This document shows, one piece after another, positions 1,123 to 17,970 of a stretch of 23,569 bases of DNA. Location of the stretch: positions 1-23,569 of IMG/VR virus record IMGVR_UViG_3300031975_000142. One strand, written 5' to 3'. The notes below the pieces were generated by a model. It was given only the letters and a program-made list of their open reading frames with translations. It searched no databases and was not told where the DNA came from. Origin of the DNA: a virus. Made by a program: the position numbers and the translations under genes. Positions within the stretch are counted from its first letter, which is position 1. The number at the start of each line of letters is the position of its first letter.

Positions 1123-2093
1123 TAACCTATGCCTCCATGAGTAGAAGTTACACCTGCGTAATGTACATGCGGAGAAAAGTCTGAGTCTCCTAAATTTGAA
1201 AAAGCAGTTACTGCATTTCCTGTAGAAGCAATTGTTATTCTATTTTGTGTTTGAGGAGAGCCACACATAAAAAAACCAATTGTATCGCTACTGAAAGATG
1301 AATCGGCAAAAACACGAGCTGCTGCTGTTAAATCTCCAAAGTCTGTAACATTACCTGTGCTTGCTATAGTAACATATTCCATTACATTTGTACTTGATCC
1401 ATCGTTGCCTCCACCAAAAACACCTCTAGTGCTACTAGAAAGACCATCAAGGAAAACTTTTGATGCACTTAAATTACCAAAGTCTGAGGAGTTTCCTGTA
1501 GATGATATGGTCACATAATCAATAGTGTTATCTGATGTTCCTCCCTCACGCCCTCCCCCATGAACATATCTTGTAGTTGAACTAAATGAAGCACCAGCTT
1601 CTCTCTGACTTGTCATGTCTCCAAAATCTTGAGCATTTCCAGTTGATGCTATGGTAATATAATCCATTGTGTTAACATCAGCACCAGCTGATCCGTTTTG
1701 ACCGCCACCAAAAATCCCTCTAGTCGTATTACTAGCACCTGATAAAGCAGATCTACCTTCACTCAAATCGCCAAAGTCTGATCCACTCCCACTAGAACCA
1801 AGAGTTATATACTGTATTACATTTATACCATCGCCACCACTTTCAGAGCTACCCCCTGCCATAATACCTCTTGTTGTACTAGAGCAACCTGCAGGTCTTT
1901 TTTGTCCTGCAGCCATGTCACCAAAGTCTGAGTTAGATCCTTCTGAAGTTAGAGTTATTAACTGTACTGAGTTTGAAAAAGTGGTGCTAGATGTTCTTCC
2001 ACCCATCAACCAAGCAAGATTTGGTGCGGTAGGCCAGTCTGAGGAATACTGTGCTTGTGTTGTGAGTGACCACACGCCATTAAAGTTAGGCAT
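1122..2093 (-). CDS. Tail-associated repeat protein, probable six-unit beta-propeller (Kelch/RCC1-like)
   Basis: A 323-residue protein starting MPNFNGVWSLTTQAQYSSDW, a typical N-terminus for phage tail proteins of this type. It then has six units of about 48 residues, each with a core like YITIASTGNATDFGDL, a variable stretch, then STTRGIFGGG. The GGG and aromatic YITI pattern resembles propeller blades (galactose-oxidase/Kelch style), so a surface-exposed binding propeller on the tail is inferred. The last unit is degenerate (QNRITIASTGNAVTAFSN). The C-terminus is THGGIG, matching the HGGL end of the neighbouring paralogue. The start ATG at 2093 follows GGAGG by 9 nt and lies 2 nt after the upstream stop. 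The stop overlaps the next ATG by one base, so coupled translation is likely. The ligand is unknown. Confidence 0.8.
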   Translation of the reverse strand: MPNFNGVWSLTTQAQYSSDWPTAPNLAWLMGGRTSSTTFSNSVQLITLTSEGSNSDFGDMAAGQKRPAGCSSTTRGIMAGGSSESGGDGINVIQYITLGSSGSGSDFGDLSEGRSALSGASNTTRGIFGGGQNGSAGADVNTMDYITIASTGNAQDFGDMTSQREAGASFSSTTRYVHGGGREGGTSDNTIDYVTISSTGNSSDFGNLSASKVFLDGLSSSTRGVFGGGNDGSSTNVMEYVTIASTGNVTDFGDLTAAARVFADSSFSSDTIGFFMCGSPQTQNRITIASTGNAVTAFSNLGDSDFSPHVHYAGVTSTHGGIG

Positions 2094-2095
2094 GG

Positions 2096-2788
2096 TTAGA
2101 GTCCTCCATGATTATTAGAAAGACCTGAACCAAAACGAACTGAAGCATCTAAATCTCCCCAATCAGAAGCATTACCAGTGCTAGATATAGTAACATAATC
2201 CATTACATTAGATGGACCAGACCCACCCATCCAAACAGCATAAGTGTCTTTACTAGAAGTTGCAGTTATTCTTCCTCTACCTACACTCAAATCACCAAAG
2301 TCTTGAGCATCTCCTGTTGAGGCTATTGTTACATAATCAATTACATTAATATTTGAACCACCACCACCTTTTAAAGCTCTTGTATTAGAAGTAGCCATAC
2401 CAGGGTATTCTCCTAGCCCACCCGAAATACAATCTCCAAAGTCAGTAGCATTACCAGTAGAAGCTATTGTTATATAATTAATTACATTACTAGAACCTGT
2501 ACCTGGCAGATTACCACCTGCAAAAAGACCTCTTGTTGTAGAACCACCAGAACAATGACTTGTTTTATTTTCAGTTAAATCACCAAAGTCTGTTGAGTTG
2601 CCTGTAGAAGCTATGGTTATATATTGTATTCTATTTGTCCCAGATCCCTCTTCTCCCCCTCCTGTAACATTTCTAGTAGAGTTAGACAAAGATGAGGTAT
2701 CTTGATTATTTGCAGCTAAATTACCAAAGTCTGTTGCGTTGCCTGTAGAAGCAATAGTAATGTATTCTATTATATTAACAGCAGCCAT
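2096..2788 (-). CDS. Propeller-repeat tail protein, C-terminal part of a gene apparently split from 2803..3309
   Basis: A 230-residue protein beginning MAAVNIIEYITIASTGNATD, that is, directly at the conserved core of a repeat with no leader domain. It holds five repeat units and ends SNNHGGL. The ATG at 2788 has no clear ribosome binding site. The preceding gene ends one frame away, only 14 nt upstream, in the middle of a repeat (GIFSGGKND then stop). The one unit there plus five here make six, the number in the intact paralogue at 1122..2093. The simplest reading is one FN3-plus-propeller gene broken by a one-base frame change; reinitiation at 2788 is the alternative. The CATGGAGGA that encodes the C-terminal HGG also supplies the ribosome binding site for the gene at 2093. 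Confidence 0.7.
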   Translation of the reverse strand: MAAVNIIEYITIASTGNATDFGNLAANNQDTSSLSNSTRNVTGGGEEGSGTNRIQYITIASTGNSTDFGDLTENKTSHCSGGSTTRGLFAGGNLPGTGSSNVINYITIASTGNATDFGDCISGGLGEYPGMATSNTRALKGGGGSNINVIDYVTIASTGDAQDFGDLSVGRGRITATSSKDTYAVWMGGSGPSNVMDYVTISSTGNASDWGDLDASVRFGSGLSNNHGGL

Positions 2789-2802
2789 TTTTACACCATT
2801 GT

Positions 2803-3309
2803 TTAATCATTCTTGCCCCCAGAAAATATCCCCCTAGTTGAAGAAGCACCGCTATTTCCAAACCTTTGCCTAACTGCACTTAAATTACCAAAGTCTGTAG
2901 TATTACCTGTAGAAGCTAAAGTAAAATACCGTATATCATCTCTCATACTACCTGTATCACCACCTGCAAATATTCCTCTTGCAGCAGCAGGAGTAAAACT
3001 AGCACTAGCAACACTAGGAGCAGATGTGCCGTAAGCATTAATAGCCCACACTTTAGCTGTAGATGCAGCGGAACTAAGATCACTTACAACAATAGGAGAG
3101 GATGTACCTGTGTTAGAACCTGTACTGTAATCAGTGCCGTCTGTACTAACTTGTGCAACAAACCCTGTAATAGCAGATGTACCTGCATCAGTAGGTGCAG
3201 TAAATGCTATACTAACAGTACCAACACCTACAGTAGGTGTGATAGCTGTAGGTGGATCAGGTGCATCTAATCCATCAGTACCAATAAAGCCACCGTTTTT
3301 ATTAGCCAT
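2803..3309 (-). CDS. Fibronectin type III domain plus one propeller repeat; N-terminal part of split tail gene
   Basis: A 168-residue protein. Residues about 15-108 form a fibronectin type III domain (DAPDPPTAITPTVGVGTVSI..., then SSPIVVSDL and VWAINAYGTSAPS, the usual FN3 G-strand region). Residues about 110-168 are one Kelch-like repeat (RGIFAGGDTG..., IRYFTLASTGNTTDFGNL, SSTRGIFSGG). It stops at KND, where the family normally runs straight into the next YITI unit. That unit appears in the -1 frame and is picked up by the ORF at 2788. FN3 domains are common linkers in phage tail proteins. The start ATG at 3309 lies 2 nt after the previous stop. I infer a tail surface protein. Whether the frame break is real or an error cannot be told from one sequence. 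Confidence 0.7.
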   Translation of the reverse strand: MANKNGGFIGTDGLDAPDPPTAITPTVGVGTVSIAFTAPTDAGTSAITGFVAQVSTDGTDYSTGSNTGTSSPIVVSDLSSAASTAKVWAINAYGTSAPSVASASFTPAAARGIFAGGDTGSMRDDIRYFTLASTGNTTDFGNLSAVRQRFGNSGASSTRGIFSGGKND

Positions 3310-3311
3310 TG

Positions 3312-3677
3312 TTATGCATCATCCATTAATTCAAAGCTACACAAGTATGTTAAGTCACTAGCTGCAGAAGCTGTAACTGCAAGTATGTCTGTTTCATCCA
3401 AGTAGAATCCATTGTCTTTACCTACAACAACTAACGTAGCATCAGCAGGTACAGATACAGTCTTAGCAATGGCAACATAGTTTGATCCATTGTCTACACT
3501 TACCTCTACTGTAATATCAGCAGCGTTAGTACCATCAATGTTTGATATCATAAGTGTGTTTACTTTAGCAACTTTGTCTGCAGCTACATCAATAATAGAT
3601 GCCCTACTTGTTGTTACTGCACCTGCTACTGTCGTAGGTGTAATACTTGATACATTAATTAAATTTATTACGGCCAT
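3312..3677 (-). CDS. Small beta-rich virion protein of unknown function
   Basis: A 121-residue protein, MAVINLINVSSITPTTVAGA..., with alternating hydrophobic and polar residues and phrases such as VNTLMISNIDGTNAADITVEV and NGSNYVAIAKTVSVPADATLV. These are typical of small beta-sandwich phage structural proteins. No catalytic motif, signal peptide or membrane segment is visible. The AAAGGAAAAGGTAA just before the ATG is a good ribosome binding region. It sits between the long fibre gene and the FN3/propeller gene, so a role in the tail tip, as a fibre adaptor or chaperone-like partner, is possible. I recognise the type as recurrent in marine phage contigs but cannot name a function. Confidence 0.75.
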   Translation of the reverse strand: MAVINLINVSSITPTTVAGAVTTSRASIIDVAADKVAKVNTLMISNIDGTNAADITVEVSVDNGSNYVAIAKTVSVPADATLVVVGKDNGFYLDETDILAVTASAASDLTYLCSFELMDDA

Positions 3678-15726: not shown

Positions 15727-17316
15727 TTAATATCCAAATGTTGGGTCTGACATTTGAAAGCCAGAACGTTGTTTTGAAGGATCATAATCCCATATAGAAC
15801 TTCTTGGTCTAGTCATTATACCGTAGCGTAAAGCGTCATACAAGTGATCTTCTGCGTGAGTATCTACATCTTCAGGGTTCTTTTTATCTAGCGGTATCGT
15901 AGGTATCTGTGCTATAGTGTTGGTGCAGGTGGAGAAGAACACGAGTCTAGGCTCTTCAGTGAACTCATCCACCTGCAACCTACGGTGTATCTCATTCTTA
16001 CCAGACACTCTAGATCCACGAGAGCGATCAGAAGGACGCCAACGGCAACCCTTCATGTTCATTTGCTCTGCTAGTGATGGTCCAGTATCGCCTCTGTTGT
16101 GCCAAAGTGATGAGTCCAAAACACCGTACCTCATTGTACCATCTTCTGCTTCTGCTTCTAATATCATGTCAGCTAAATCTGTAGCTGTAACCTTAGAACA
16201 GTATAACTCTCTGTAAACCACTAGTTGTTCATCTGGTGAAACAGCAAACCAAAGTACTCCTGTGTAAGAACCGTAGCCGTAGTCGCAAGCCCTGAACCTA
16301 GCCCATGATCTAGGAATGTCGTATGGGTCAACTACGTGTATGGCTCTGTTAAACTCAGGGAATGCTGCTCCTTCATTAGTATCCCAGTTACCTTCTAGTA
16401 ACTGCTTTCTCTGGTGCTCTGGCAATGATAGTAGCATTGCTTCGTAGTCACCGCTGTCTGCTAGGTATGGGTTATCAAACAAACTAGCAGGTATAAATCT
16501 ACGCTTAAACAAGGGCTGTCCTTCACGACTATGCCCTCTAGGAAATCTTATAGTCTCACCCGACTCAATGTTAGTAGCCCAGAATGGCTCATTTGCAGGT
16601 GAAGGGTCTATAAACATTTTCTTTACCCAACTATGTCCATTGCCTCCTGGGTTAGTAGTACCTCTCATGTACAAACCTAGCTGAGAGCTAAATGCTGAAC
16701 GAAGTCGTGACCTCATATAATCCCAAGCATAAGGAGTAGGCCACTGTGTAAGTTCATCAAAGCCAATCCAGTTAAACGCTTGTCCTTGATAGCGTGTCAC
16801 GTCCATGTCTTTATCTAAGTAAGACATCCACAGTCTACCACCTCTAGGTGCAATCCACTGTGATTTACGTTCACTCCACTTGATACCAGGTATTGCTTTA
16901 GGATAAAGCTCTTGACTCTTCTGTATAAGCTCTCTAAGTTCTTCAGTAGTATGGCGAACAAGTAGACCACTAAAGTTTGGATCGTTTAGACCATGAAGGG
17001 GGTCAGCAAGCATTGCAAAGCTCTTACCACCACCTGCTGCCCCTCCATACAAGACTTCTCTTTCAGATGCGGATAAGAAGCTTGTTTGTGGTCCTGGGTT
17101 TGGTTTAAACACTACTTCTTGAGCAATGTCAACATCAAACTCAGGCGCTTTTACTTCGGCTGCTACAACTTGTACTTCAGGCTCTGGCTTCGCTTGACTT
17201 GTTTGTGTAGGCTCCGATTCTTTCTTCTTCAAGGTTCTTGATTTCTTGTAACGTTTCTTGGAGCCGCTTGGCAAGCTTCCGCTTAATTGTAGCTGCTTTC
17301 TTACGTTTTCGCTCAA
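15727..17316 (-). CDS. terL: Large terminase, ATPase and nuclease part
   Basis: 529 residues from a TTG at 17316. Motifs in order: Walker A GGAAGGGKS at about 91-99; Walker B FNWIGFDE at 181-188; coupling motif GTTNPGG near 219-225; RNase H-like nuclease with Asp in CDYGYG near 345, VLDSSLWH near 400 and the final HAEDHLYDALRY. The conserved family region begins near residue 65 (EVVFKPNPGPQT). The first 60 residues in this frame are low complexity (KKESEPTQTSQAKPEPE). There is no ATG upstream of the ATPase core in this frame. A weak AAGGG precedes the TTG. The conserved N-terminal module lies in another frame at 17177..17602, so the protein may be made by frameshifting, as two chains, or the sequence may carry an indel. 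Confidence 0.9.
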   Translation of the reverse strand: MSENVRKQLQLSGSLPSGSKKRYKKSRTLKKKESEPTQTSQAKPEPEVQVVAAEVKAPEFDVDIAQEVVFKPNPGPQTSFLSASEREVLYGGAAGGGKSFAMLADPLHGLNDPNFSGLLVRHTTEELRELIQKSQELYPKAIPGIKWSERKSQWIAPRGGRLWMSYLDKDMDVTRYQGQAFNWIGFDELTQWPTPYAWDYMRSRLRSAFSSQLGLYMRGTTNPGGNGHSWVKKMFIDPSPANEPFWATNIESGETIRFPRGHSREGQPLFKRRFIPASLFDNPYLADSGDYEAMLLSLPEHQRKQLLEGNWDTNEGAAFPEFNRAIHVVDPYDIPRSWARFRACDYGYGSYTGVLWFAVSPDEQLVVYRELYCSKVTATDLADMILEAEAEDGTMRYGVLDSSLWHNRGDTGPSLAEQMNMKGCRWRPSDRSRGSRVSGKNEIHRRLQVDEFTEEPRLVFFSTCTNTIAQIPTIPLDKKNPEDVDTHAEDHLYDALRYGIMTRPRSSIWDYDPSKQRSGFQMSDPTFGY

Positions 17317-17602
17317 TGTCTACCCTTTTCTTAAGTCCTTCACCAGATATGTACCTACCCGTTTGCTTTGTTAGCCACAGTGCTACTTCTTTATAAGTGT
17401 ATTGCAAGATATGATTCTTTGCAAGTTCTAATGCTTCTAGCTCAGGGATGATAGGCTGAAGTAGCTTATCATTGTCAGGGTCAACTTCATAACCAAACGG
17501 TATTGTTCTAGTTACTCTAGCTATTACGTGCCACTGTTTTTCTGCACCCTTGTGTGGTCTAGGTAGCTCCCAGTAGCCAAGAGATTCACGGTTTACACTT
17601 AT
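17177..17602 (-). CDS. Large terminase N-terminal module with helix-turn-helix, no standard start codon
   Basis: An open frame of 141 codons read from an ATA at 17602: (M)SVNRESLGYWELPRPHKG, then QWHVIARVTRTIPFGYEVD, then YKEVALWLTKQTGRYISGEG and LKKRVDIERKRKK. I recall this exact arrangement as the N-terminus of large terminases in marine phages. The middle looks like a DNA-binding helix-turn-helix. Between its upstream stop and residue 66 there is no ATG, GTG or TTG; the first is TTG at 17407, deep inside the conserved region. The ATA overlaps the small terminase stop as ATAA, where ATGA would be the normal coupled start. AAGGA lies 8 nt before it. The frame ends at 17177 while the ATPase continues in the +1 frame. 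It is broken at one or both ends, or decoded unusually. Confidence 0.7.
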   Translation of the reverse strand: MSVNRESLGYWELPRPHKGAEKQWHVIARVTRTIPFGYEVDPDNDKLLQPIIPELEALELAKNHILQYTYKEVALWLTKQTGRYISGEGLKKRVDIERKRKKAATIKRKLAKRLQETLQEIKNLEEERIGAYTNKSSEARA

Positions 17603-17970
17603 TCGTTTGTTCCTTCTTTAGATGGTAATATAAATACGCCACCGCTAGATGACGATACGTCTACTCTTTCTACCTTACCAAGTCCTGCTCTGTCAAGCAA
17701 GTCTTTAGCTGCTGACATCTTATCTCGTATGCCTAGCTCTGTTGGGTCACTCAATGCACCCACCATAGCCATAGCAGCTTTAGGTGCAGTACGTGCAAAG
17801 TAACTACGTGTACGATCACCTATCTCGTCTTTAAGAGATTCTACAATAGCTGTAGTACTAGAAGACTCACCATACCCTGATAGTTTCTTAGCTTGTACAA
17901 CATCCCCTCCTGCCTCTTCAAACAAGACTTCAAGGAACTTCTGTTGTTTTTCTGTTAGGTTTCTAGCCAT
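17599..17970 (-). CDS. terS: Small terminase subunit
   Basis: A 123-residue protein. Residues 5-40 form a helix-turn-helix-like DNA recognition region (LTEKQQKFLEVLFEEAGGDV, then KKLSGYGES). Then comes a helical oligomerisation part (KDEIGDRTRSYFARTAPKAA, MAMVGALSDPTELGIRDKMS, AAKDLLDRAGL) and a short C-terminus, GGVFILPSKEGTNE, that may contact the large subunit. Small terminases form rings that recognise viral DNA and feed it to the motor. It abuts the upstream stop (TAA then ATG) and sits directly before the large terminase. Its end supplies the AAGGA that would serve the next gene. Confidence 0.8.
   Translation of the reverse strand: MARNLTEKQQKFLEVLFEEAGGDVVQAKKLSGYGESSSTTAIVESLKDEIGDRTRSYFARTAPKAAMAMVGALSDPTELGIRDKMSAAKDLLDRAGLGKVERVDVSSSSGGVFILPSKEGTNE

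Follow-up and report, generated by a model that had tools for sequence, protein, structure and literature searches.

A conserved AUA between the DNA-packaging genes of a large marine phage group: probably a genuine but weak start codon, not a sequencing error

Packaging genes of the window and the sampling of relatives

The stretch of DNA analyzed here (the window) comprises 23,569 bases of virus record IMGVR_UViG_3300031975_000142, a virus of the HMO-2011-type roseophage kind. Both its gene order, in which an open reading frame (ORF) lies between the genes for the small (TerS) and large (TerL) terminase subunits, and its similarity to isolates place it among the HMO-2011-type phages. Used as a 2274-nt query, the TerS-TerL stretch is 79.7% identical to CRP-603, 78.7% to CRP-2 and 72.8% to CRP-207, with 99-100% of the query covered in CRP-603 and CRP-207. 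TerS, the ORF and TerL follow one another on the minus strand (Table 1) and are succeeded by a portal gene, which was recognized by comparison with annotated relatives.

Table 1. Coordinates of the packaging genes and putative initiation signals in the window
Feature	Positions	Strand	Remarks
Small terminase subunit (TerS), ATG start, TAA stop	17599..17970	-	phrog_2538 terminase small subunit, E 7.8e-05; weak Pfam Terminase_2 match below cut-off
Shine-Dalgarno site AAAGAAGGA within the end of TerS	17611..17619	-	7 nt (duplex end) from ATA
Putative start codon ATA	17600..17602	-	Overlaps TerS stop as ATAA; kept in 124/124 distinct sequences of three clades
ORF, 141 codons plus stop, predicted helix-turn-helix protein	17177..17602	-	Homologous to N-terminal domain of the fused CRP-212 TerL
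TerL Shine-Dalgarno site AAGAAAAGGG	17323..17332	-	Read in front of the TTG start
Large terminase subunit (TerL), own TTG start at 17316-17314	15727..17316	-	Pfam Terminase_6N, E 5.5e-09; phrog_979, E 8.7e-56

On the minus strand, TerS ends with AAA GAA GGA ACA AAC GAA TAA, its stop occupying positions 17601-17599. Read in the frame of the ORF, the region is TAA AGA AGG AAC AAA CGA ATA AGT GTA AAC CGT GAA TCT CTT GGC TAC TGG. The ORF frame opens past the in-frame TAA located 18 nt upstream of the ATA and runs for 141 codons to a stop at 17179-17177. A first-pass annotation had described the head of this frame as lacking ATG, GTG and TTG, and our minus-strand reading confirmed this, the first such codon being a TTG at 17407, far within the conserved part. 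It had also placed an ATA, overlapping the TerS stop as ATAA, behind an AAGGA, and the distances it gave between AAGGA (17615-17611) and ATA (17602-17600) are correct.

Relatives were collected from five IMG/VR scans, in which 80 loci were taken from each of 131, 422, 341, at least 598 and 184 confirmed relatives, and 12 annotated phages were added to the IMG/VR loci. An ORF match was present in 413 sequences, 404 of which contained enough of TerS. Those left out were three loci without a TerS match and six with less than 300 nt before the TerS stop; three of these six belong to near groups, and all three have the ATA. Duplicates were then removed, as were all but 10 (kept as outgroups) of the far HMO-/CRP-9-type relatives, yielding 192 rows, with the window merged with an identical row (L014) in row counts. 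ATA without a canonical start occurs in 124 of these distinct rows and a canonical start in the remaining 68. With duplicates included, ATA without a canonical start was found in 171/171 fetched loci of the window, CRP-207 and L072 groups, and a canonical start in 73/73 fetched loci of the CRP-603 group.

ATA is one base away from ATG, and a base error in the assembly at position 17600 had been raised as an explanation. This is effectively excluded, since the same base was recovered in all 171 of these loci, which span three clades and many metagenomes (45 different metagenome numbers by hand count among the 52 loci L014-L065), and since the isolate CRP-207 has the same ATA and no canonical start.

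Coding evidence and identity of the ORF

Each of the 124 distinct ATA rows lacks a canonical in-frame start at the N-terminus of what is a protein-coding ORF. The 90 codons past the ATA contain 0 stops in the ORF frame, compared with means of 9.4 and 9.5 in the other two frames. An LGYW motif begins 5-11 codons past the ATA. Over the 18 codons from this motif, median dN/median dS was 0.12, 0.08 and 0.19 in the window-, CRP-207- and L072-type clades, respectively, and over 60 codons further in it was 0.14, 0.09 and 0.10. The ORF is under purifying selection, with a dN/dS of about 0.1, and this value together with the disparity in stops between frames indicates that the open frame is not a product of chance. 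A further proposal was that the start had been lost and the ORF was no longer translated. A canonical start is indeed absent, and the deposited CRP-207 annotation keeps only a truncated piece of the ORF (gp62, 159 nt). However, a dead gene is contradicted by purifying selection within the very clades that lack an ATG, as well as by the 124/124 frames that are open, and we regard a lost gene as very unlikely.

A profile comparison (hhalign probability 97.6, E 3.8e-12, 29% identity over 62 columns) identified the N-terminal domain of the fused CRP-212 TerL as a homologue of the ORF. In CRP-212, the N-terminal domain and TerL are fused in one frame (L011, positions 1527-3392). CRP-212 represents a gene fusion or split within the HMO-2011-type phages.

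The window's TerL occupies the +1 frame relative to the ORF and begins at a TTG within the ORF, with a Shine-Dalgarno (SD) site in front, so that the two genes overlap by 140 nt (17177-17316) in different frames. The TerL start codon is TTG throughout the window-, CRP-603-, CRP-207- and L072-type groups (157/157 distinct ORF sequences) and, at the same place, ATG in 69/70 sequences of the HMO-2011 and CRP-1 groups. In the CRP-9 group, 61 of 63 sequences lack a start codon at precisely this position; two of the 413 sequences were not placeable in this count. In several groups, the choice of TTG or ATG as TerL start goes together with an Ile or Asn codon in the ORF. Because TerL lies in the +1 frame with its own conserved start, the ORF is best read as encoding a separate protein and not the beginning of this phage's TerL. 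The earlier designation of the ORF as the large terminase N-terminal frame therefore holds through homology to the CRP-212 domain only; in the window the ORF stands apart, and TerL has its own TTG at 17316. A programmed +1 frameshift could in principle join the ORF and TerL into a single two-domain TerL like the fused CRP-212 gene. Two observations fit such a frameshift: the split relatives that were compared all carry TerL in the +1 frame, and CRP-212 has both parts in one frame. Nonetheless, it is quite unlikely: the separate frame and the conserved, SD-preceded TerL start speak against one polypeptide with the TerL ATPase of the CRP-212 type, and a +1 fusion would supply no start for the ORF. 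A minor fusion product is conceivable.

Searches of the ORF family against Pfam, PDB sequences and PHROGs returned nothing convincing. The best stray matches came from 1 of 19 members to a PHROGs integrase family (E 0.00036) and from 2 of 19 to Pfam PID_2 (E 0.0023). A structural model predicted from 27 sequences consists of three helices with a long final one (mean pLDDT 76.6), and its nearest PDB folds are weak matches to a serine integrase (E 0.2) and the G20c small terminase (E 2.0). Comparison with viral models gave five mostly unnamed proteins (E up to 3.8e-04), followed by resolvases at E 0.025 and worse. Since the nearest folds are weak, a helix-turn-helix, DNA-binding product is a lead and not a result.

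Special use of AUA throughout the phage was also considered and is disfavored, given that the ORF is the only clear sense-strand gene of CRP-207 with a start-less head. By eye against the annotation, and with short frames inside or between genes set aside, no other clear sense-strand CRP-207 gene of at least 70 codons has such a head. When five genomes and the window were scanned for conserved heads without a start, many matches were returned, those in the five genomes being taken regardless of strand; in the window, all matches except the ORF are antisense to genes.

Conservation and history of the ATA

In the 124 ATA rows, TerS terminates with TAA (110 rows) or TAG (14 rows), and its final codon is GAA in 120 and CAA in four, the CAA rows still retaining the A of the ATA. 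The second and third bases of the ATA double as the beginning of the TerS stop, which leaves the first A and the lack of TGA as the only informative features. This first A is the synonymous third base of the last TerS codon and shows 0 changes on the tree; other Glu codons in the same TerS genes are GAA in 431 cases and GAG in 309. The two-fold sites of the SD-forming K and E codons and of the intervening N codon likewise stayed unchanged on the tree, compared with 3-17 changes each (mean 9.3) at 16/16 other two-fold TerS sites. SD and ATA are separated by 7-8 nt in 124/124 distinct rows, an arrangement also present in the isolate CRP-207; a near-cognate codon is thus kept at a fixed place with an SD at working distance. 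TGA, which would give ATG at this position, ends 28 of the 76 annotated CRP-207 genes and is used in none of the ATA rows. It is likewise absent from 56 CRP-603-group rows, which means that its avoidance is not specific to the ATA clades and is suggestive only as a sign of selection. An RNA structure at the start found no support, as 187 of 200 shuffled versions of the 63-nt region folded as well as the native sequence or better.

From three codons upstream to the LG[YFW]W motif, ATA is the sole codon one base from AUG in 61/61 window- and L072-type rows. Another near-cognate codon is present in 62 of the 63 CRP-207-type rows, usually an ATA or ATT located one or two codons further along. Translation might accordingly begin at a different non-canonical codon nearby, such as GTA two codons on in the window or ATT or ATA in the CRP-207 types, and CRP-603 types do have an ATG two codons past the ATA position, where the window has GTA and CRP-207 has ATT. 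However, the position two codons on is not conserved (AAA, GTA, ATT, CAT, CCA and others), whereas the ATA column is the only one near the start that is near-cognate in all rows, with the SD 7-8 nt away in every case, and initiation at another codon is improbable. A TTG occurs 18-21 nt past the ATA in a few ATA rows (L026-L029, L167, L169, L172 and L173); since this codon encodes the Leu of the conserved LG motif, it is probably not a start.

A -1 ribosome slip at the end of TerS that produces a TerS-ORF fusion would be in keeping with two features: the ORF lies in the -1 frame relative to TerS, and the TerS end is rich in A and conserved to an unusual degree. Against this, in-frame stops are located two codons before the ATA in 7/20 L072-type and 11/63 CRP-207-type rows and five codons before it in 20/41 window-type rows. 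With stops as near as two codons before the ATA, no common slip stretch is open upstream, and a -1 slip is unlikely. By eye, no codon pair at the TerS end re-pairs in the -1 frame, no slippery site with an open target frame was found, and sister phages supply an ATG instead.

In CRP-603-type phages this ATG is 6 nt (two codons) downstream of the ATA position, and in HMO-2011 and CRP-9 types an ATG located 5 nt before the TerS stop overlaps it in a different register. Across the relatives compared, the ATA is common to three clades, and ATG codons are placed elsewhere. The idea that a single G-to-A change had converted ATGA to ATAA is left unsupported, as none of the relatives examined has an ATG at the ATA position. 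In the CRP-603 group, 49/56 rows have GAG as final TerS codon, so that the ATA is mostly gone there, and the same SD stands 14 nt from the ATG in 47/55.

Each of the three ATA clades was supported at 100/100 in a 64-row tree, and a grouping of all ATA rows as one clade was rejected (AU p 0.0046). Rows of the CRP-603 group with ATG are split between two positions in the tree, and at one of these they are sister to the window clade (100/99). Bootstrap support for the two deep forks involved is 62 and 66%, and the number of start changes on this tree is 2 or 3. These placements suggest that the start changed few times; ATA may have arisen twice, or it may have arisen once with ATG returning. The association of ATA with a missing ATG thus reflects about two changes on the tree, which are few events despite the many sequences.

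Proposed initiation at AUA and comparison with known systems

With a lost start and a base error ruled against, initiation at AUA is the reading left of the three options in the first-pass annotation. We propose, with a probability of roughly 0.8, that this ORF, situated between TerS and TerL, is a genuine gene started at a near-cognate AUA that is placed by an SD, probably coupled to TerS and low in yield. Codon and SD conservation, coding selection on the ORF and the independence of the TerL start were computed directly. From the sequences we infer the remaining steps, namely that a ribosome starts at the AUA, its coupling to TerS, the low yield and the purpose of that yield. The 30S subunit would be placed by the Shine-Dalgarno AAAGAAGG(A), 7-8 nt upstream of the AUA. 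Initiation would probably be coupled to TerS termination, because the AUA overlaps the TerS stop (AUAA or AUAG). With AUA, fMet-tRNA would pair with the first two bases and leave the third mismatched, and a low yield would be expected since IF3 normally disfavors such a mismatch; in a reconstituted system, IF3 is reported to exclude weak third-base start-codon pairings (PMC10158994). Most likely, the AUA would set a low dose of a small, probably DNA-binding packaging protein relative to TerS.

It is tentatively hypothesized, as a rather doubtful extension, that selection maintains the AUA start as a dose limiter and that this start also acts as a sensor, tying the amount of the packaging protein to the host translation state and to TerS synthesis. 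A sensor role would follow from the dependence of AUA initiation on IF3 and host growth state, as reported for S. aureus ccpN. If this is true, the sister phages with ATG would reach the same low dose via a good start codon with an SD 14 nt away.

Near-cognate starts are already known. In E. coli, infC and pcnB start at AUU. The phage ORF resembles these genes in having a near-cognate third-base mismatch and a weak start kept by selection, and differs in that theirs is AUU and the genes are cellular; no overlap with an upstream stop is known in either. ATGA overlaps in phage operons offer another parallel, as the start overlaps the upstream stop and translational coupling is expected, and CRP-207 has 11 annotated neighbors with 4-nt overlaps. 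Here, however, an AUA start overlaps a UAA or UAG stop in place of UGA. The fused CRP-212 TerL, which shares the homologous N-terminal domain, is a single frame with an ordinary ATG, in contrast to the two overlapping genes described here. In S. aureus, infC, ccpN and citZ are reported to start at AUA, with about 10% of AUG expression at tested sites and, for ccpN in rich medium, up to 30%; the ccpN AUA start is conserved across species (PMC13009471). As described in that source, the S. aureus genes share with the phage ORF an AUA start with an SD, but they are chromosomal with an extended SD, whereas the ORF is a packaging gene with a moderate SD. Unlike those genes, the phage AUA overlaps the stop of the preceding gene and has counterparts in sister phages with an ATG 6 nt on.

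A literature search by title and abstract, with most subscription journals outside its reach, found no AUA-started phage gene, and two papers on HMO-2011-type phages contain no mention of 'start codon'. What appears to be new is a conserved AUA that overlaps an upstream stop in a phage packaging operon. The evidence comes from evolution, in the form of many sequences, a frozen initiation region and sister phages with an ATG 6 nt on. The locus would serve as a natural system for asking under what conditions selection favors a weak start and by what means a phage adjusts the proportions of its packaging proteins.

AUA starts are rarely recognized. Gene callers limited to ATG, GTG and TTG shorten the ORF even in the isolate CRP-207 and would miss metagenome copies. 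The deposited TerL genes of CRP-603 and CRP-207 are annotated from codons later than the conserved TTG, and they look too short at the N-terminus.
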